A stretch of 22,212 nt of DNA from the IMG/VR virus record IMGVR_UViG_3300036791_000829, positions 1 to 22,212 of that record; one strand, 5' to 3'. Both the position numbers and the translations under genes were made by a program. The stretch is from a virus. The stretch's first letter is position 1; each line of letters begins with the position of its first letter. Below are positions 4,933-17,405 of this stretch, one piece after another. The notes under the pieces are model-generated. The model was not told the DNA's origin. It searched no databases and worked only from the letters and a program-made list of their open reading frames with translations.

Positions 4933-5124
4933 ATGGCGGAGCATTACCCCAAAAGCACCGTGCAGGTGTCCGTATGGTGCAACCCATGCGGGAAGCACAC
5001 ACCGCACCGCGTCGACGACGGGCGCCGCGGGCCATGTCTCACCTGCCTGGCGCTGCTTGAAGCAGAACGCAAGAAACCACCCACGCCAGTAGTCGACCCG
5101 CGGCAACTCGAGCTATTCCAATGA
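4933..5124 (+). CDS. small zinc-ribbon protein
   Basis: A 63-aa protein with two CxxC knuckles, CNPC (about 16-19) and CLTC (about 35-38), separated by a basic loop: a compact four-Cys zinc ribbon. It ends in PRQLELFQ. ATG 4933 was chosen over upstream in-frame codons because GGAG precedes it and it begins right after the previous stop. It overlaps TerL by ATGA (5121-5124). The position immediately before terL is where a small terminase subunit often lies, but the protein is too short and lacks a helix-turn-helix, so that role is not supported. Confidence 0.75.
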   Translation: MAEHYPKSTVQVSVWCNPCGKHTPHRVDDGRRGPCLTCLALLEAERKKPPTPVVDPRQLELFQ

Positions 5125-6782
5125 ACGATACGATCGACGTTGCGCGCATCCAGGAGGATCCGGCCTACAAGGAGGAGCTGCGCTGGCGCGCGCAAACAGA
5201 CCTGCTCTGGCTGGCGAAACACGTTCTCGGCTACAGCCTGATTGACGAACACGACCACCGCGAAATCGCGGATATGTTCATCGAGAAAGACCCAACCAAG
5301 CCGATCGAGGAGCAGAGCGAAATCAAGGTGCGCATCATCCTGATGCCGCGGCGCACTTTCAAAACGACATTTAACATTGCCGACACCGTGCAGTGGATTC
5401 TGGGTTTCCCCGACGTTGCGGTAATGGCCATGACCGCCAGCAATAGCCCCGATTCGCCCCTGGCCGATGCATTCGTGATGGAATGCGCCATGCATTTCTA
5501 CGTGGCGCCGGGCGCCCCGCTCAAACCCCTGCATCTGCTCTTCCCCGAGCACGTTCTTTCGAAGATCCCCAAGGCCGGCGAATTCAACACCCCGGCGCGG
5601 ACCCACTACCGGCGCGACCCCACCGTGAAAGGCGTATCCATTGAACAATCGCTCTCGGGGTGGCACCCCGACGTCTTGAAAGGAGAGGATATTCAGGATA
5701 ATCGGAACTCCCAAACCAGCTTCGCGCTGCAAAAGGTCTGGAAGAACCTGCAAATTAACATCAAAATGCTGGCCGAATGGGCTTACCGTGACCACACCGG
5801 GACACGCTACGGACCCGCCGACGTCTACAGCCGCATGCTGGTAAACCCCGGACCGCGAACGAAGATCCTCTGGAAACCGGCTTACGTCCGCTTCCCCCAT
5901 GCTTTAAGCATCGAGGACGACGATTTGACCGAAGGCGATGTGATTTTGCAGTTTCCGCGGCTTTTATCGTGGGAATATCTGAGAAGCGTCAAGATCGACG
6001 ACGAAGACACGTTCTGGACGCAATATATGAACATCGCGCAAGGAAATTTCAAGCCGACCTTCCCACAAGAGAAGCTAGAGGCTGCTAAAGTGAGCGCAGA
6101 GCACGCACCCGATGAGCATAAAGCGCACATTGCCTGGCGATTCGAGTATGCCGAGTGCAAACACGCCGCCGGCGCCGTGGGAATCGAGCGCGACGGCCGG
6201 ATTACGATTGTCGAAGTCCTGCGCGGCATGTTCGTCCCCACCCAGCTGGCCCGCCGGGTTGTGCTTACAGCAAAGAAATGGGAGACGCACCGGGTCGAGA
6301 TTGAAGACACCCCCGGCGCCCGCACCATGGTCCCCCACATTCGTAACGTGGCGCTTGAGAATGACTGGCGCATTGAGCTCAGCTGGGGTGATTTCCTGCA
6401 GGACGACACCGCCCGAGCACTGGCCATCAAAAGCGCCGAGCCCCATCTGCTTGGCGGCCGGCTGCTCTTTGCTGATGACCTCCAGAACGGCGCGGAACTC
6501 TTTCGCCAGCTTTACCAGTTCGGCATGGTGGACGAATTCGAGCTGGCCAGCGTGGTAAGCCGAGTGGCTAACAAACTGCCCGCGTCGATCGCGGCCGAGG
6601 GATTCGAGGCGCAGGACGAGGAGATGTTTGCCAAGTATGTAGAAGAAGATGCGTACAACCGCGTCTACGGCCGCGGGCGGTACAAAGACGAAGAACCGGC
6701 GCCCGAGATGCCGGGCGAAGAATGGGAACCAGCCGAACCAGGCGCCGGGCTGAGCGACATGATGCCGGGGTTGACGGGATGA
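5121..6782 (+). CDS. terL: terminase large subunit
   Basis: A 553-aa protein. It is the ATPase-nuclease motor that cuts concatemeric phage DNA and drives it through the portal into the prohead. Near residues 75-83, MPRRTFKTT is a terminase-type Walker A. MTASN (104-108) is the next conserved strand. The acidic strand PDVLKGED (183-190) fits Walker B, with Glu189 the likely catalytic carboxylate. The C-terminal RNase H-like nuclease starts near 336 (HIAWRFEYAE, GRITIVEVLRG), with candidate acids at VEIED (392-396) and LLFADDL (448-454). The first nuclease Asp is not obvious. The tail (from about 515) is acidic and Pro-rich. Length is normal for the family. It overlaps its neighbours by ATGA at both ends. 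Confidence 0.9.
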   Translation: MNDTIDVARIQEDPAYKEELRWRAQTDLLWLAKHVLGYSLIDEHDHREIADMFIEKDPTKPIEEQSEIKVRIILMPRRTFKTTFNIADTVQWILGFPDVAVMAMTASNSPDSPLADAFVMECAMHFYVAPGAPLKPLHLLFPEHVLSKIPKAGEFNTPARTHYRRDPTVKGVSIEQSLSGWHPDVLKGEDIQDNRNSQTSFALQKVWKNLQINIKMLAEWAYRDHTGTRYGPADVYSRMLVNPGPRTKILWKPAYVRFPHALSIEDDDLTEGDVILQFPRLLSWEYLRSVKIDDEDTFWTQYMNIAQGNFKPTFPQEKLEAAKVSAEHAPDEHKAHIAWRFEYAECKHAAGAVGIERDGRITIVEVLRGMFVPTQLARRVVLTAKKWETHRVEIEDTPGARTMVPHIRNVALENDWRIELSWGDFLQDDTARALAIKSAEPHLLGGRLLFADDLQNGAELFRQLYQFGMVDEFELASVVSRVANKLPASIAAEGFEAQDEEMFAKYVEEDAYNRVYGRGRYKDEEPAPEMPGEEWEPAEPGAGLSDMMPGLTG

Positions 6783-6991
6783 GCGATTTTACTTTGCATG
6801 TACCGTGCGCCTGTAGCTGTGGATGTGACCAATCCGTCTCTGGGCCCGGCCCGCGGGTTTGCGCTTTTTGTCGACAGGGATACCACATGGCCAGAGTGGA
6901 ATTCCACACCAATAAAGTACCAGCCACCCTGCCTGAACACTCGGGGACCATATTGGTAGTGAAGCAGAACTCAGAAGGAAAGGTGAGCTGA
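6779..6991 (+). CDS. Cys-rich zinc-binding protein
   Basis: A 70-aa protein. CACSCGC (about 10-16), then CAFC (28-31) and GYH make a small zinc-knuckle domain; the C-terminal half is a plain beta-rich tail ending EGKVS. ATG 6779 overlaps the terL stop (ATGA), which fixes the start. It is the first member of the run of eight coupled genes between terL and portal. Its last codons contain a 22-bp stop/SD/start cassette repeated at the end of the next gene. No function can be assigned. Confidence 0.75.
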   Translation: MSDFTLHVPCACSCGCDQSVSGPGPRVCAFCRQGYHMARVEFHTNKVPATLPEHSGTILVVKQNSEGKVS

Positions 6992-6995
6992 TGCC
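6974..6995 (+). repeat. 22-bp stop/SD/start cassette, copy 1
   Basis: An exact copy lies at 7306-7327. It encodes EGKVS-stop of the upstream gene, supplies the SD AAGGTGAG and contains the ATG of the downstream gene (TGATG). The 12-bp core AAAGGTGAGCTG occurs again at 16690-16701 in a different reading frame, before a GTG start. Confidence 0.7.
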
Positions 6996-7323
6996 GTGTG
7001 AGCGGATCAAAATGCCGGATGGGTCCGTTGCGCACATCAACCGCGGCCGCGGAAGGAAGCAGCAGCGATGCGGGTTCTGTGGTCAGAAATACCGGGAAGG
7101 GAAAGCCTGCGATTTTCCAATAGGCAACGGCAAAACCTGCGATGCGGAGATGTGTAACAACTGCGCGACCACCGTAGGACGGCAACAGACCGAGTATGCT
7201 CCCGGCACCGGCATTGTCAGACTCAATGACACCGTTGACCTTTGCCCCCTGCATAGAGATGCCGCAAGCTGGTCAGCAGACGATGGCATAAAACGAATCC
7301 CGCTCGAAGGAAAGGTGAGCTGA
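6991..7323 (+). CDS. multi-Cys zinc-binding protein
   Basis: A 110-aa protein. It has CGFC (about 27-30), a Cys at ACD, then TCDAEMCNNCA (about 48-58) and CPLH (about 85-88), enough for two zinc sites. A basic segment, RGRGRKQQR, precedes the first knuckle. It is coupled to both neighbours by TGATG/TGA overlaps and ends in the same EGKVS peptide as the gene before it. Similar Cys-rich proteins beginning MPCE(P/R)IKMPDG are familiar from other phages, without a known role. Confidence 0.75.
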   Translation: MPCERIKMPDGSVAHINRGRGRKQQRCGFCGQKYREGKACDFPIGNGKTCDAEMCNNCATTVGRQQTEYAPGTGIVRLNDTVDLCPLHRDAASWSADDGIKRIPLEGKVS

Positions 7324-7327
7324 TGCC
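7306..7327 (+). repeat. 22-bp stop/SD/start cassette, copy 2
   Basis: Identical to 6974-6995. It provides the SD and start for the Acb2/Tad1-like gene at 7323. Confidence 0.7.
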
Positions 7328-7544
7328 AGTTAACCGCGACAATCTGCTGGATGTTTTCAGCTACCATGCCCCCAAACCAGGCCAAACGGAGAAGTATGAA
7401 GAACTGCGAAACGCAGCGTTCAGCTTCGCCAAGGCGATTCTTGAACTGACGCCAACCTGCGCCGACCAGCAGGCGGCCGTTCGCCTGGTACGTGAAGCGG
7501 TGATGACGGCGAATGCGGCGATCGCGTTGGAGGGAAAAATTTGA
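7323..7544 (+). CDS. Acb2/Tad1 hairpin-domain protein (anti-defence)
   Basis: A 73-aa protein matching the small helical-hairpin family named Acb2/Tad1. A FSYHAP motif (about 12-17) and P-x-x-x-x-x-Y-E-x-L-R lead into helix 1 (ELRNAAFSFAKAILEL). A turn with Pro follows, then helix 2 ending in the hallmark REAVMTANAAIAL (about 58-70). Known members form oligomers that bind cyclic oligonucleotides (Acb2) or cyclic ADP-ribose products (Tad1) and so blunt CBASS or Thoeris defence. The length equals the bare domain. It is translationally coupled to genes on both sides in the terL-portal accessory run. Family assignment is from pattern memory; which ligand it binds cannot be read here. Confidence 0.75.
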   Translation: MPVNRDNLLDVFSYHAPKPGQTEKYEELRNAAFSFAKAILELTPTCADQQAAVRLVREAVMTANAAIALEGKI

Positions 7545-7864
7545 ACACCACGGTTCCCACTGCAGTGCTTTCCGAGACTGAAGCTGTGAAGAAAGCAGAC
7601 CTGCGCCGCAAGAGCAGGCTGCGCGTGATCGACCAGGGCACACCTTACGACGCCACCGGCCGCATGATTAAATGGGCGCGCGAATTGAGAAGTGGGAAGC
7701 TAGGCCGCTGCACTGACATTCTCATCGTCGCCCGCACGATCAAGACGGAGACCGGCGATGGAAAGGGCGGACATGGATATGAATACTTCAGTAATGGCCC
7801 TGGGGATGCGAAAACTTTCTATGCGATGGCCGAAGCTCTAGCACTGAGGTACAGACTACGATGA
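7541..7864 (+). CDS. hypothetical protein
   Basis: A 107-aa protein starting at TTG 7541, which overlaps the previous stop (TTGA) and has GGAGGG seven bases upstream. It is mixed alpha/beta with a basic N-terminal third (KKADLRRKSRLRV) and a Gly-rich loop (GDGKGGHGYEYFSNGPGD). I do not recognise a family. Coupled translation with the Acb2/Tad1-like gene makes it a candidate accessory partner. Confidence 0.65.
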   Translation: MNTTVPTAVLSETEAVKKADLRRKSRLRVIDQGTPYDATGRMIKWARELRSGKLGRCTDILIVARTIKTETGDGKGGHGYEYFSNGPGDAKTFYAMAEALALRYRLR

Positions 7865-8103
7865 AAATTCTGGTTGAAAGCACCAACCGCATGGTTTCAA
7901 TCGAAGCCCGAGAGGGCGACTGCAGGTGTGCAGTCCCCGGCCGCGTCTGGGAAGGCCGCACCGAGAGCGGCATCTATGTGCAGTGCGTCATTACCCGCAT
8001 CGCGGCGCCGGCCGATGCGGACCAGAGAGAGTTTTTAGCAGAGCTGAGCGAACAATCCGCCCCAACGGGGCCAGAAGTGTTTCCGTTGCGAATGGTGATC
8101 TAG
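7861..8103 (+). CDS. hypothetical small beta protein
   Basis: An 80-aa protein with an ATGA overlap at its start. The core pattern VPGRVWEGRTESGIYVQCVITRIA resembles widespread phage proteins of about 80 aa that carry a P-x-R-V-W-E-G-x-T-x-x-G motif; none has a function known to me. The C-terminus is acidic. It lies in the middle of the coupled terL-portal run. Confidence 0.7.
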   Translation: MKILVESTNRMVSIEAREGDCRCAVPGRVWEGRTESGIYVQCVITRIAAPADADQREFLAELSEQSAPTGPEVFPLRMVI

Positions 8104-8570: not shown

Positions 8571-8843
8571 ATGCCTCTACCCGCGAGACACACAATCAAA
8601 TTCCTTCGCTCTGGGCGAGGTAAGGCTCAATGCCCGTCTAATCCAGACTTCCCTCAAGGGAAAGCTATCCCGCCCACGACCCCTCATAGCTGCTTTGTCA
8701 AACTCCCTTATCCCGCTCCGGAATGTGGCATGTGGGAGGTCGATTGCAGTACTTGTAAATGCGCGGTGCTGGTTACGGCCGCCGGCAGGCCCGATGATCC
8801 AGTGAGTTTCTTTATGCCCTGCTTTTACGAGGCTAAGCCATGA
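8571..8843 (+). CDS. zinc-site phage protein
   Basis: A 90-aa protein with Cys at SCF, ECG, CSTCKC and PCF. The pattern ends W-E-V-D-C-S-T-C-K-C then TAAGRPDDPVS and PCF, as in a recurrent but uncharacterised phage family. Two adjacent ATG codons (8568, 8571) compete; GAGG at 8560-8563 is better spaced for 8571. It overlaps the portal gene by ATGA (8840-8843) and closes the small-gene run. Confidence 0.7.
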   Translation: MPLPARHTIKFLRSGRGKAQCPSNPDFPQGKAIPPTTPHSCFVKLPYPAPECGMWEVDCSTCKCAVLVTAAGRPDDPVSFFMPCFYEAKP

Positions 8844-10981
8844 CCGAACTTGCCAACACGGTGAACGGATCCCAGCGCATCAACAAAGACGATGTGGTGC
8901 TGGTCCCGCTCCTCGATCCGCGCTACACCGATGACGCCGCGGTGCAGCTGGTGATCCAGGACGCGCGCAAGGCGCGAACCTACCTCGATCAAAAACAATG
9001 GAATTTGCACTGGCGCGAAGCCGATGTGCTCTTTCAGAGTCCGCGGACCAACCAGAGCTTTGAAGGATCGACCACCGCCCGCGCGAACATTTCTCGTTTC
9101 ACCGTGGCCAAGCATGTAAACAGTCTGGTACCGGGAATGAAAAGCGGCATTTTTTACGAGATGCCCCCATTCCTGATTCGCCCGCGGCCGGCAACCAGCC
9201 AGCGCACCGCGCGCGCGAAAACCGCTCTCTATGGCGCCCTGCTTGATCAGGCATCTTTCGAAGACGAAAGCGAGCGCGCCCTTGAGAGCATGACCAACTT
9301 CGGGACCGTGGTTGTAAAGGGAATATGGAAGAAAGACACCAAGATCAAAAAGCTGCGCGCCCCCAAAGCCGCGCCAGTGAAAATGAAACTGCCCTTCGGC
9401 GGCGAACTCACGGTACACACCAGGGAATCAACCGAAATCATGGTGCAGAAAACGGAGGTTGAGGAAGAAGGGCTGGAGGTTGAAGTATGCGAGCTGGGCA
9501 GCGTTCTGATTGATCCGACCTGGCGCAAAGCCAACCAGTTGCACAAAGCGGCCAAATACGTGGTGCACGTCACCTATCCCACTTTCACCGACCTGGACAA
9601 GATGCGCGACCAACAGGCGATATTTGACGACGAAGGCAACCAGGTGGGCGGCTACGACATTCCGCCCGAAGAAGAACTGAAAGCCTATTTCTTTTCGCAC
9701 GAAGGCAATGCCGGCGCCCCCAGTCAGGTACAGCTCAACCTGGGCGGCCAGAACTGGGCCATCCACCACGCGCAGAACGAAGAAGAACCGGGCAGCGTCG
9801 ATCCGCTCGAGCGGCCCATACAGATGCTCGAACGATGGGACCACGGCAATGTTTACACCGTGCTCTGTCCAGATGGCGGCGATCGTGGCGTGCTAATCCG
9901 CAACGAGGCCCATGACCTTCCGTTTTTGCCGTTTTTCTCTGCCAACTTTTGGAACATCCCGAATGCCGGTTTCGGGCTGGGAGTAGGACGCCTGGCCGGC
10001 TCAGACCAGCGCATTGAAAAGGGACTTACGGACGCGGTGCTTGACATTCTCAGTTCATCCGTCAACCCCATGTATGCGCGCGACCGCGGGGCCAACGCGC
10101 CAACCCAGCAGATCCGGCAACGGCTGGGCGGGATTATCGACGTCGACACCAAGCCGGGCCAGAGCGTGAGGGATGTGTTTGGCATCATCGAACTGCCCAA
10201 GACGCCGGCGGAAGCGTTCACGGTACTCCAGAATGCATCCCAGAGCGCGCAGTCAACCACCGGCGCCGATGAGGCGTTTACCCAAGGAAACCTCCCCGGC
10301 CGCGGCAGCTCCGCGGCGCGCACCGCGACCGGCGCCGGAGGAATTATGTCCGCGAATGCCGGGAAGATCCAGGGGCCAGTGGGGCATTTCGTGAAGGGCA
10401 TTCTGTTGCCCATCATCGAGCTGCTTGAGCACTTCGTTAAATCGCGCATGAGCCTCAAGAAGATCCGGGATATTCTCGGGCAGGAACTGGGCGCCGCGTT
10501 CGAGCTCGACGCGCAAAATTTCTACGAGAGTGAAGACAGGTTTGAATGCCTGGCTGGCGCGCACCTGGCCGCCAAAAAAGCGATGGCCCAGGCGCTTCCC
10601 TTACTCGTGCAAATTTTTGAAAATGCGCCGCTCATTCAGCAACTCAATGCAACCGGCTGGATTGTGGACGTGAAACTGTTGCTCGAGATGTTTATGGAAG
10701 TGTCGGAATGGAAGGATGACCGTGAGCTGATCCGCCGCATGACGCCCGAGGAGGAGCAAAAGCACCAGCAGAACAACCCCGGCATGCAGAAGGTGCAGGG
10801 CCAGATTGTGGCGATCGGCGCCCGCCACCAGGCCAAGAGCGCGGAGATTGACCAGTCGAACGAAGCCGACCTGGCCAAAGACATGATTTCGAAGGCCAAC
10901 GATGAAGCGGCGCTGTGGGATGAGCGGAAGTGGGCGCGAACCGGAATTAACGAGAGCGTGTTTGCGCCGGCAGGAGCGTAG
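8840..10981 (+). CDS. portal protein
   Basis: A 713-aa protein of the size and composition of podovirus/P22-type portals. It would form the dodecameric ring at one capsid vertex through which TerL packages DNA and to which the tail attaches. Visible hallmarks are an N-terminal helical region with paired Trp (QKQWNLHWREADVLF), a central RDRG-NAP segment (about 415-425), GADEAFTQG before a Gly/Ser-rich linker with RTATGAGG (about 475-505), and a long helical C-terminus rich in Gln and Glu. Its place after terL and before the scaffold and capsid supports the call. The start overlaps the preceding stop. No frameshift is seen. Confidence 0.85.
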   Translation: MTELANTVNGSQRINKDDVVLVPLLDPRYTDDAAVQLVIQDARKARTYLDQKQWNLHWREADVLFQSPRTNQSFEGSTTARANISRFTVAKHVNSLVPGMKSGIFYEMPPFLIRPRPATSQRTARAKTALYGALLDQASFEDESERALESMTNFGTVVVKGIWKKDTKIKKLRAPKAAPVKMKLPFGGELTVHTRESTEIMVQKTEVEEEGLEVEVCELGSVLIDPTWRKANQLHKAAKYVVHVTYPTFTDLDKMRDQQAIFDDEGNQVGGYDIPPEEELKAYFFSHEGNAGAPSQVQLNLGGQNWAIHHAQNEEEPGSVDPLERPIQMLERWDHGNVYTVLCPDGGDRGVLIRNEAHDLPFLPFFSANFWNIPNAGFGLGVGRLAGSDQRIEKGLTDAVLDILSSSVNPMYARDRGANAPTQQIRQRLGGIIDVDTKPGQSVRDVFGIIELPKTPAEAFTVLQNASQSAQSTTGADEAFTQGNLPGRGSSAARTATGAGGIMSANAGKIQGPVGHFVKGILLPIIELLEHFVKSRMSLKKIRDILGQELGAAFELDAQNFYESEDRFECLAGAHLAAKKAMAQALPLLVQIFENAPLIQQLNATGWIVDVKLLLEMFMEVSEWKDDRELIRRMTPEEEQKHQQNNPGMQKVQGQIVAIGARHQAKSAEIDQSNEADLAKDMISKANDEAALWDERKWARTGINESVFAPAGA

Positions 10982-14651: not shown

Positions 14652-15655
14652 ACTCAACCACAACCATCCAGGCCGTTGCCGACTACGTGCAGAGCATGGG
14701 CGAGCTGGCGCCGGTGCTGCCCGCGGCCGGCTACAGCATCAACAACTGTCTCAACATCGCAACCGATGTAATGCTCGATTTGATTTCCCAGCGTTTCAAT
14801 TGGAAGTGGAACCGCATGAAAGTCCCGCCCTGGTATACGAACAGCTGGCAGCAGGACTATGCGCAACTGGGATCCACTTTCAAGCAGCCGATCGGCTGGA
14901 TTGAAACCGCCTACTGGGTGGACATAAACAACACCGCGCTACCGAAGCCGACCTATCCAATCGAAGTGCAGCGCGACCTTCCCGTTACTTCCATTTCCGG
15001 CAACCCGCCGGCGAAGCTCGACTGGGAATTTAATAACCAGCTGATACAAGGAGTGTGGCCGGGCCCCAGCCAGAAATACACGCCGCCCCTGGGCGCGACG
15101 ATCACGCCCACCAACCCCATCACCAACATCCTCGACTCGAACGGCAACATTCTGATTCTCACCACCTATGGAGTCACCAACGTAGCGAACACCCCGCCGA
15201 CATTGCCGGCGAACTCTCCGGAAGGCACCACCGTCAACGATGGTTCATGCATCTGGACGGTCGTAGATCCAATGGCGCAGGGATTCCGGCTGATGCCGTT
15301 GCCGCCACAACAGGGTGTGGTCTACCAAGTCAACGTGGTTGGGCAGATGAAGGCGCCGCCGCCGTTCACAACTGTGCAGCAATTCATCAACCCGATCCCC
15401 GACGACTACGCCAACTATTTCCGTGACGGCTTTCAGGCATACTGCTACAAGATCAGCCCTAACGGGCAAATGCGAGGCATGTTCCGGGAACAGCGGCAAT
15501 CCTGGCTGGCTTCGATCGAAGCGGCGATGAAGCAGGGCGACCGCGAACAGACCAACTCCGGGTTTATCCCGGATAGAAGTGTTGTGGCAGCCCAAGGCGG
15601 CTATGACCTTGGGCCATGTAACCCCTACCTCTATTGGCCATGGCCAGGAAGATAA
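14648..15655 (+). CDS. head-tail connector-like virion protein
   Basis: A 335-aa protein whose two ends look like a phage adaptor/connector. An N-terminal helical part (LNIATDVMLDLISQRFNWKW) and a C-terminal part (FINPIPDDYANYFRDGFQAY, then MRGMFREQRQSWLASIEAAMKQ) flank a beta region. Between about 155 and 208 lies an insert (SNGNILILTTYGVTN, PEGTTVNDGSCIWTVVDP) that resembles the Trp-ending modules repeated in the 17598-21170 tail protein. The place after the capsid suggests a ring linking portal to tail. It starts by ATGA overlap, and its last 25 bp overlap the antisense HNH gene. Confidence 0.6.
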   Translation: MNSTTTIQAVADYVQSMGELAPVLPAAGYSINNCLNIATDVMLDLISQRFNWKWNRMKVPPWYTNSWQQDYAQLGSTFKQPIGWIETAYWVDINNTALPKPTYPIEVQRDLPVTSISGNPPAKLDWEFNNQLIQGVWPGPSQKYTPPLGATITPTNPITNILDSNGNILILTTYGVTNVANTPPTLPANSPEGTTVNDGSCIWTVVDPMAQGFRLMPLPPQQGVVYQVNVVGQMKAPPPFTTVQQFINPIPDDYANYFRDGFQAYCYKISPNGQMRGMFREQRQSWLASIEAAMKQGDREQTNSGFIPDRSVVAAQGGYDLGPCNPYLYWPWPGR

Positions 15656-16482
15656 TTGGCAACGACTATCGAACGTCGGAGCCATTGTTCTCTTGAGGAG
15701 CTATCAGTCCAATGTATCTCGTAGTGACAATTCGCGCAGAGAGTTTCGAGATTTACATCTGCATTATTGCTGTGGTCCTCATCGCGATGGTGCACTGTGA
15801 GATGTCGCGGATTCTCATCCTTACATCGTTCGCAACAGACCTTTCCTATTCTTCTGATCGTGCCAACGAAACCTCGTATTCGATAGTTAAGACCGCCATT
15901 GAAGTAGGCGTAACGATCCGAACAATTGCGAGAACAAAAGGAATTCGTTCCCCAACTAGCGCCTTTGACGGGTTTCTGGCAAACCTTGCAGGGCTTAATC
16001 TTGTATCGCCGCGATGCTTCGTTGGCACATCGTCTCGAACAAAATTTAGGCTCAACTCTAGCACTAGTCACGGATCTAGCGAATTCTCCGCTGCATTGAG
16101 AACAGGTATAAGTACGCATCATGACATGCTTGCAATTTTCTTTGAAACAAGCGCGCGAGCAATACAGAGGAGATTTTTCTCGCCAGCGGTTAGCTGTAAA
16201 CGCGATGCCGCATCCCCGGCAACAGAAATTTCTGTTATGCCGCCGCGACAGATCATGACATTTTGGAGAACAGAATTGGGCCGGCTTGCCCTGCCTTGTC
16301 CGCCGCGCGAATTTAGAACCGCACTGTTTGCATACATGAATCGGCGCCACGTTCAAGCTGCGCACCCGCTTGAATTCATACCAGCATCGAAGACTGCAAA
16401 ATCTAGTTTTCCTGTTGCCTTTGAGGGTAGTAAAGGCAACATCGCAATGCTCGCATTTGTAAACTCTTTTTTGTGGGGTCAC
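15631..16482 (-). CDS. HNH endonuclease with five zinc-finger modules
   Basis: A 283-aa, probably free-standing homing endonuclease. Five modules of the form CxxC-(14-20 residues)-CSxxC occupy about 10-33, 51-75, 88-112, 127-152 and 165-187. The HNH nuclease follows: CERC (217-220), HLTVHH (227-232), N244 and CANCHYEIH (249-257), giving the His-Asn-His residues and a structural zinc site. GTG 16482 was chosen because AGGAG lies five bases upstream on the minus strand. ATG 16536 has no SD, and further extension would cross another gene. It runs against all neighbouring late genes and is visibly more AT-rich, as expected for a recently acquired mobile gene. It separates two connector-like genes. 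Confidence 0.85.
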   Translation of the reverse strand: MTPQKRVYKCEHCDVAFTTLKGNRKTRFCSLRCWYEFKRVRSLNVAPIHVCKQCGSKFARRTRQGKPAQFCSPKCHDLSRRHNRNFCCRGCGIAFTANRWREKSPLYCSRACFKENCKHVMMRTYTCSQCSGEFARSVTSARVEPKFCSRRCANEASRRYKIKPCKVCQKPVKGASWGTNSFCSRNCSDRYAYFNGGLNYRIRGFVGTIRRIGKVCCERCKDENPRHLTVHHRDEDHSNNADVNLETLCANCHYEIHWTDSSSREQWLRRSIVVANYLPGHGQ

Positions 16483-16556
16483 GGTCGCTCCTATCAGCGA
16501 TTGGGCTTGTCCGGTGCTTGCAACACCTGACCCCATCAGATTACAGGAGGTAAGCC

Positions 16557-16697
16557 ATGCCAGTGAAGCTCGAGCGCAAACTGAAACGCGCAGCCAAGAA
16601 GAAGGGGCTGGGCAAGAAGCGCGCGGGCGCGTACGTCTACCGGACGCTTCGCAAGACCGGGTGGACACCGAAGAAGAAGACCACAAAGAAAAGGTGA
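16557..16697 (+). CDS. 46-aa very basic protein
   Basis: A short gene of 46 codons, MPVKLERKLKRAAKKKGL then AYVYRTLRKTGWTPKK. It is extremely rich in Lys and Arg and has no Cys. A perfect AGGAGG lies six bases before ATG 16557, and the gene ends 3 bp before the next start. Small phage proteins with this KL-x-x-x-L plus AYVYGTLRKTGW pattern are familiar from connector regions; the function is unknown, and DNA or nucleoprotein binding is possible. The HNH gene lies just upstream on the opposite strand, so this gene may once have followed the 14648 gene directly. Confidence 0.75.
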   Translation: MPVKLERKLKRAAKKKGLGKKRAGAYVYRTLRKTGWTPKKKTTKKR

Positions 16698-16700
16698 GCT

Positions 16701-17405
16701 GTGGCCTCCACAATTACCGTGCAGAACACGATTAACTGGTCAGCTGCTTTCCTCGAACAGCAGCCAGTGCTGGTCAATGGACAGGAGCCGGCGCTTGGAT
16801 CCGCGAATCTTGTTTTGCAGACGATTCTGGGCGCGCCGTTCGCCTGGCCGTTCAACCGCGGCATCATCTCTTTTACGACGCTCAACCAGGACACGACGCA
16901 ATCGGGGCTATCTGATTTCGGTTTTCTCGAGGGAGGATCCGCGCAACCTGTGACCGGCGGCAAGTCGTGGGAGGTTGCAGTCAAGAATTTTCTCAACATC
17001 GACGTCAACCAGGCGCGCCCGCAGTGGTGCTCGCCGTTCATCGACGACGGGGCCGGCAACATAACGTTCAGACTTACGCCGGCGCCCGATACCGGCTACA
17101 TCGTGGTGCTGCCCTACCAGCGCCGCGCGCCGATCCTGTTGAGCCTGGCCTACAGCTGGGCGCCGCTCCCCGACGATAAGAACTACATCGCGCAGTGGGG
17201 ATTCCTGGCTCTCATGTCCCTGATCGGCAACGATGCACGCTTTAACGAGTACAACCAAAAATTTATTACCGCGCTGCTGGCCGCACAGGGAGGGTTGACC
17301 GACCTCGAGCGCAATGTTTTTCTCGCCAACTGGACGCGGGTTATGAGCCAGCTGCAGAGCACGCAGCTAGGCACAGCCGAACGCTACAAGGCAAGGGAAG
17401 TCTAA
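16701..17405 (+). CDS. second connector/tail-tube-like protein
   Basis: A 234-aa protein from GTG 16701, preceded by the AAAGGTGAG cassette. The beta-rich middle (AGNITFRLTPAPDTGYIVVL) and helical end (YIAQWGFLALMSLIGNDARF, then LTDLERNVFLANWTRVM) resemble adaptor or tail-tube components of podovirus-like tails. It shares an overall plan with the 14648 product but no clear sequence identity. Its stop is followed closely by an antisense membrane gene. The assignment rests mainly on position and fold-like pattern. Confidence 0.55.
   Translation: MASTITVQNTINWSAAFLEQQPVLVNGQEPALGSANLVLQTILGAPFAWPFNRGIISFTTLNQDTTQSGLSDFGFLEGGSAQPVTGGKSWEVAVKNFLNIDVNQARPQWCSPFIDDGAGNITFRLTPAPDTGYIVVLPYQRRAPILLSLAYSWAPLPDDKNYIAQWGFLALMSLIGNDARFNEYNQKFITALLAAQGGLTDLERNVFLANWTRVMSQLQSTQLGTAERYKAREV

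Follow-up and report, generated by a model that had tools for sequence, protein, structure and literature searches.

The window analysed here comprises the whole 22,212-nt stretch, positions 1 to 22,212, of the IMG/VR record IMGVR_UViG_3300036791_000829, from a soil-type phage. At 7323..7544 (+) it carries a gene of 73 aa, from ATG to TGA, for a putative immune-signal sponge that we assign to an Arg-type clade of Acb2/Tad1-hairpin proteins. As the first-pass annotation had placed it, the gene lies between terL (5121-6782, matching PHROG 38) and the portal gene (8840-10981, SU10-type, PF23899), within a run of small genes. Its upstream neighbour (6991..7323, +) encodes a 110-aa Cys-rich, zinc-ribbon-like protein and overlaps the sponge start by a TGATG. 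On the other side follow an overlapping ORF without family (7541..7864, +), common only to the relative L001, and a small gene (7861..8103, +) that recurs in the vicinity of the sponge gene in L001, L002, L003, L013 and L028, five relatives in all. Stop and start codons overlap at the gene junctions (TGATG at 6991 and 7323, TTGA at 7541, ATGA at 7861), which makes the translational coupling proposed earlier for this cassette plausible; the sponge, judged by its position only, would be made at packaging time.

The sponge gene is preceded by a 22-nt junction, GAAGGAAAGGTGAGCTGATGCC (7306..7327, +), which combines a Shine-Dalgarno-like segment, a stop and a start, and of which an exact copy occurs at 6974-6995. 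The same repeat thus marks the starts of two successive genes, where the number expected by chance is 0. In a search of viral_contigs, it was found outside the window only on the contig of L001, which lacks the ORF 6779-6991 and has the junction once. This arrangement suggests that the small Cys-rich ORF 6779-6991 may have been inserted together with a duplicated gene-start junction. Elsewhere in the window, an antisense ORF (15631-16713, -) between plus-strand structural genes contains repeated Cys-pair motifs resembling zinc fingers; its HNH match is weak (18.9 bits for a cut-off of 21.4), and it possibly encodes a homing-type endonuclease.

Comparison of the window gene with its counterpart in L001 revealed 24 synonymous and 4 non-synonymous codons, the differences falling 4/3/27 on the three codon positions. 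Such mainly synonymous change relative to close relatives is that of a maintained gene: the ORF 7323-7544 is genuine and evolves under purifying selection. With an HMM of the sister clade, the protein (P0001) reached 61.9 bits, where 20,000 composition-shuffled sequences gave 13.5 at most, and relatives of the sponge protein are encoded by 190 viral stretches.

The sponge gene and its Cys-rich neighbour move together. Positions 6991-7544 of the window correspond to 5669-6219 of L002, a segment of two genes with 85-87% DNA identity (86.8% for the Cys-rich gene and 85.1% for the sponge gene), in a phage whose terL protein is only 30% identical to that of the window. In L001 the two genes are equally close (86.8% and 84.7%), with a terL protein 94% identical. 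Furthermore, the cassette stands after the portal gene in L002 and before it in the window. Such behaviour is that of an accessory cassette exchanged between distant phages. Clustering of neighbours by longest ORFs was swamped by antisense ORFs and was set aside. Beyond these loci, the Tunturiibacter phage Tunturi_1, whose host belongs to Acidobacteriota, has a relative with 51% identity. Relatives also occur on 12 contigs of metagenome-assembled genomes, with labels that include Acidobacteriota, Pyrinomonadaceae and Planctomycetota; these contigs may be of phage origin.

These locations bear on one alternative, namely that the protein has kept the hairpin fold without being a sponge and serves, in co-expression with terL and portal, as a small helper of virion assembly or regulation. 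Such a role would fit the position of the gene in the late head module beside terL/portal in the window, L001 and L028, as well as after the portal gene in L002, L003, L041 and L046. However, the position of the gene moves, and a terL and portal of the same type were not detected nearby in most of 92 scanned loci; in Tunturi_1 it sits among small hypothetical genes and an RNase H. The exchange of the gene and its neighbour between phages with 30% identical terL proteins is also unlike the behaviour of a virion-matched part, and we regard a helper role as unlikely.

The assignment of the 73-aa product to the Acb2/Tad1 hairpin domain family, put forward in the first-pass annotation, is confirmed. 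The protein matches the Pfam profile PF24729 (Acb2_Tad1_hairpin) at 8.6e-10 with 39.1 bits, above the curated cut-off of 27, and the same profile is matched by 64/64 aligned relatives at E<=0.01, as well as by T4 Vs.4 (Acb2), PaP2 Acb2 and a protein of Paenibacillus phage Pahemo. The PHROG matches of the query are 31113 and 1454, neither of which has an assigned function; T4 Vs.4 matches PHROG 1454 at 7e-4 and in the same register as the query. No match to the sponge protein was returned by NCBIfam or PADLOC. An AlphaFold2 model of the protomer (pLDDT 95.3) predicts helices at residues 8-11, 21-42 and 47-68, that is, a short N-terminal helix followed by the expected two-helix hairpin. The Foldseek search among viral proteins (BFVD) agrees, its 13 best matches all being named Acb2/Tad1 hairpin proteins.

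Against the PDB, Foldseek gave no significant match for the monomer model, with Vs.4 at an E-value of about 4 and a probability of 0.08-0.51 depending on the chain. Since a control model of a true 74-aa Acb2 (L100) retrieved 8h2j at 1e-5 and Vs.4 at 0.04, the null result reflects a real difference and not only a lack of power: the query has the hairpin domain but is farther from Acb2 proper. Neither the single protein nor a 64-row profile retrieved an Acb2 or Tad1 chain when searched directly against solved structures. The domain can also occur fused, as indicated by gene 210 of Mycobacterium phage ScoobyDoobyDoo (L167 1001-1447), whose 148-aa product has an N-terminal hairpin and an extra C-terminal part. 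Family members in records of Paenibacillus and Brevibacillus phages (e.g. L169 983-1189) are labelled 'putative phosphomannomutase' in GenBank; since the protein of Brevibacillus phage Jenst aligns with the hairpin family, this name is likely wrong.

Profile-profile comparison with hhalign placed the query relative to the characterized members. The query clade aligns with a PHROG 1454-type clade at E=2e-25, and the latter with Acb2 at E=7e-7, whereas the direct comparison of the query clade with Acb2 is not significant (E=0.079). By sequence, homology between the query and Acb2 thus appears only transitive, through the intermediate PHROG 1454-like clade. The Acb2 matches of a profile that itself included Acb2 rows (A2) were discarded as circular, and the search was repeated without these rows. 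The resulting profile A3, built from the query and intermediate clades, had PDB 9ptq, 'Acb2 homolog 43', as its best PDB sequence (1.4e-4), and the other five of its six best were Tad1 (0.003-0.004). In an IQ-TREE phylogeny of 144 rows, the query clade is monophyletic on one side of a branch with 100/98 support and Acb2 on another (100/100), with the intermediate clade between them; this tree is based on 79 columns, diagnostic ones included, and many of its inner forks are open.

The earlier reading had taken FSYHAP (residues 12-17) and REAVMTANAAIA (residues 57-68) as marks of Acb2/Tad1. The family call was right, yet these motifs mark a separate clade rather than Acb2 or Tad1 themselves; Acb2 has in common with this clade just the Tyr, a basic residue in helix 1, the Met and small interface residues. 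The nesting of the query clade beside the intermediate clade in the tree, together with the helix RE..ALT..EEA.MW.N common to Tad1 and the intermediate clade, could point to a sponge that, like Tad1, takes up Thoeris signals of the ADP-ribose type. On the other hand, the query has 73 aa, compared with 123-138 aa for Tad1 chains, and the Arg that follows the MWMN motif of Tad1 (residue 109 in 7uav) is Ala65 here. The N-terminal beta-domain of Tad1 is absent from the protein, which was accordingly rejected as a Tad1 in the narrow sense, and we consider sequestration of Thoeris signals in the Tad1 manner quite improbable.

To compare individual residues, we used the register given by the Pfam end points, which agrees with PHROG 1454 and hhalign. 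The pocket of T4 Vs.4 is composed of Y8, H11, K23, R79 and F82, and its hexamer interface of L29, A66, A73 and A77 (PMC10097602). The earlier expectation of Acb2-type pocket residues held for two positions: the Tyr, Y8 in T4 and Y11 in PaP2, corresponds to Tyr14 (codon 7362..7364, +; Y in 59/64 and H in 5/64 relatives), and the helix 1 Lys, K23 in T4 and K26 in PaP2, to Arg29 (codon 7407..7409, +; R in 63/64 relatives). The latter position is K in 44/44 Acb2 rows and R in 73/73 rows of the intermediate clade. The expectation failed for the three others, His11, Arg79 and Phe82 being replaced by Pro17, Ala65 and Ala68, respectively. The hexamer-face counterparts are F35, A52, A59 and A63, which correspond to those of T4 by residue similarity only; among the 64 relatives, F35 is F/L/M, A59 is A/C/S, and A52 and A63 are each conserved in 64/64.

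Other positions are specific to the query clade, in which Arg54, Arg57, Thr62 and Asn64 are invariant, Asn64 being common to the intermediate clade. The codons of Arg54 to Arg57 span 7482..7493 (+), and both arginines, present in 64/64 relatives, are replaced by Thr and Glu/Gln in other clades. In the alignment of relatives, the segment TANAAIA (residues 62-68; 7506..7526, +) forms the signature of the C-terminal helix. Arg54 is the counterpart of T4 T68, and T68M has been reported to lower binding (PMC12657230). By their spacing, R54, R57, M61, A65 and A68 would lie roughly on one side of the second helix, so that basic charge may have shifted along the pocket-facing helix. The loss of Arg79, together with the new Arg54 and Arg57, suggests that the ligand or its geometry differs from that of 3',3'-cGAMP in Acb2.

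These residues also weigh on the possibility of a plain Acb2 orthologue, with an Acb2 pocket that binds 3',3'-cGAMP and cyclic dinucleotides related to it. The protomer topology and the length class are those of Acb2, 74-aa forms of which exist, and the pocket Tyr, a basic residue and the interface residues are retained. Nevertheless, 44/44 Acb2 rows have Arg79 where 65/66 rows of the query clade have Ala, H11 and F82 of T4 are lost, the tree separates the query from the Acb2 clade at 100/98 support, and its direct similarity to Acb2 is not significant. Given its pocket residues and the direct profile comparison, the protein was rejected as an Acb2 in the narrow sense, and simple orthology is, in our judgement, distinctly unlikely.

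We favour, with reasonable confidence, a phage anti-defence sponge that is built on the Acb2/Tad1 hairpin scaffold and is oligomeric, with a re-made pocket. Pairing of protomers along the face of the C-terminal helix that bears small residues would yield an Acb2-like, probably hexameric oligomer, whose pockets, composed of Tyr14, Arg29 and the clade-specific Arg54/Arg57, would bind an anionic nucleotide immune signal. The bound signal would be kept from its effector and not destroyed; candidates include a cyclic di- or trinucleotide, an ADP-ribose-type molecule or another signal. Of the sponge of CBASS/Thoeris signals originally proposed, the hairpin family stands, but the narrower Acb2-type sponge of cGAMP/gcADPR finds only partial support, R79, H11 and F82 not being kept. 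The sequestering of cyclic oligonucleotides or gcADPR would be a reasonable guide to the mode of action, not to the ligand. Since the branch is separate and its ligand-binding residues are unlike those of the tested members, this protein probably blocks a bacterial alarm signal that may not be theirs.

Considered alone, the gene adds one member to a family already named in databases. Tentatively, and with more doubt than for the favoured sponge itself, the Arg54/Arg57 clade could be a class of hairpin sponges in its own right, carried by phages of soil and of uncultured hosts such as Acidobacteriota and Planctomycetota, with a pocket remodelled for an immune signal that neither Acb2 nor Tad1 binds. 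If so, the clade could be used to fish out this signal. A single fold can serve sponges for different immune signals, and a widespread clade in which the oligomer face is kept and the pocket residues are exchanged provides a ready test case for specificity shifts. Furthermore, its ligand may lead to a signalling defence of soil bacteria that have received little study.

Compared with Tad1 (PDB 7uav, 8kbb-8kbh), the query has the C-terminal helix of the hairpin domain in common, with a two-clade profile match at E 0.003, but only 12 residues precede its domain, where the longer Tad1 chains carry the extra beta-domain, and Ala65 takes the place of the Tad1 Arg. With Acb2 (T4 Vs.4, PDB 7uq2; PaP2 p26, PDB 8h2j) it shares PF24729, the two-helix hairpin protomer, the length class of the short Acb2 forms (74 aa), the pocket Tyr, a basic residue in helix 1 and small residues on the hexamer face. 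It differs from Acb2 by its separate clade and lack of a direct significant profile match, by replacement of T4 R79, H11 and F82 and of the PaP2-type loop Arg67 (Ala47 in the query), and by the gain of invariant Arg54, Arg57, Thr62 and Asn64. PDB 9ptq, the best PDB match of the Acb2-free profile, is likewise short and hairpin-only, though it bears the REKS..TKLEEA signature of the intermediate clade. Finally, the PHROG 1454 proteins (e.g. gene 73 of Paenibacillus phage Pahemo) have R-E at 47-48, T54, E57, W62 and R69 where the query has A-D, R54, R57, T62 and L69, but share with it the FxYHxP start, R29, N64 and the A63-A68 helix.
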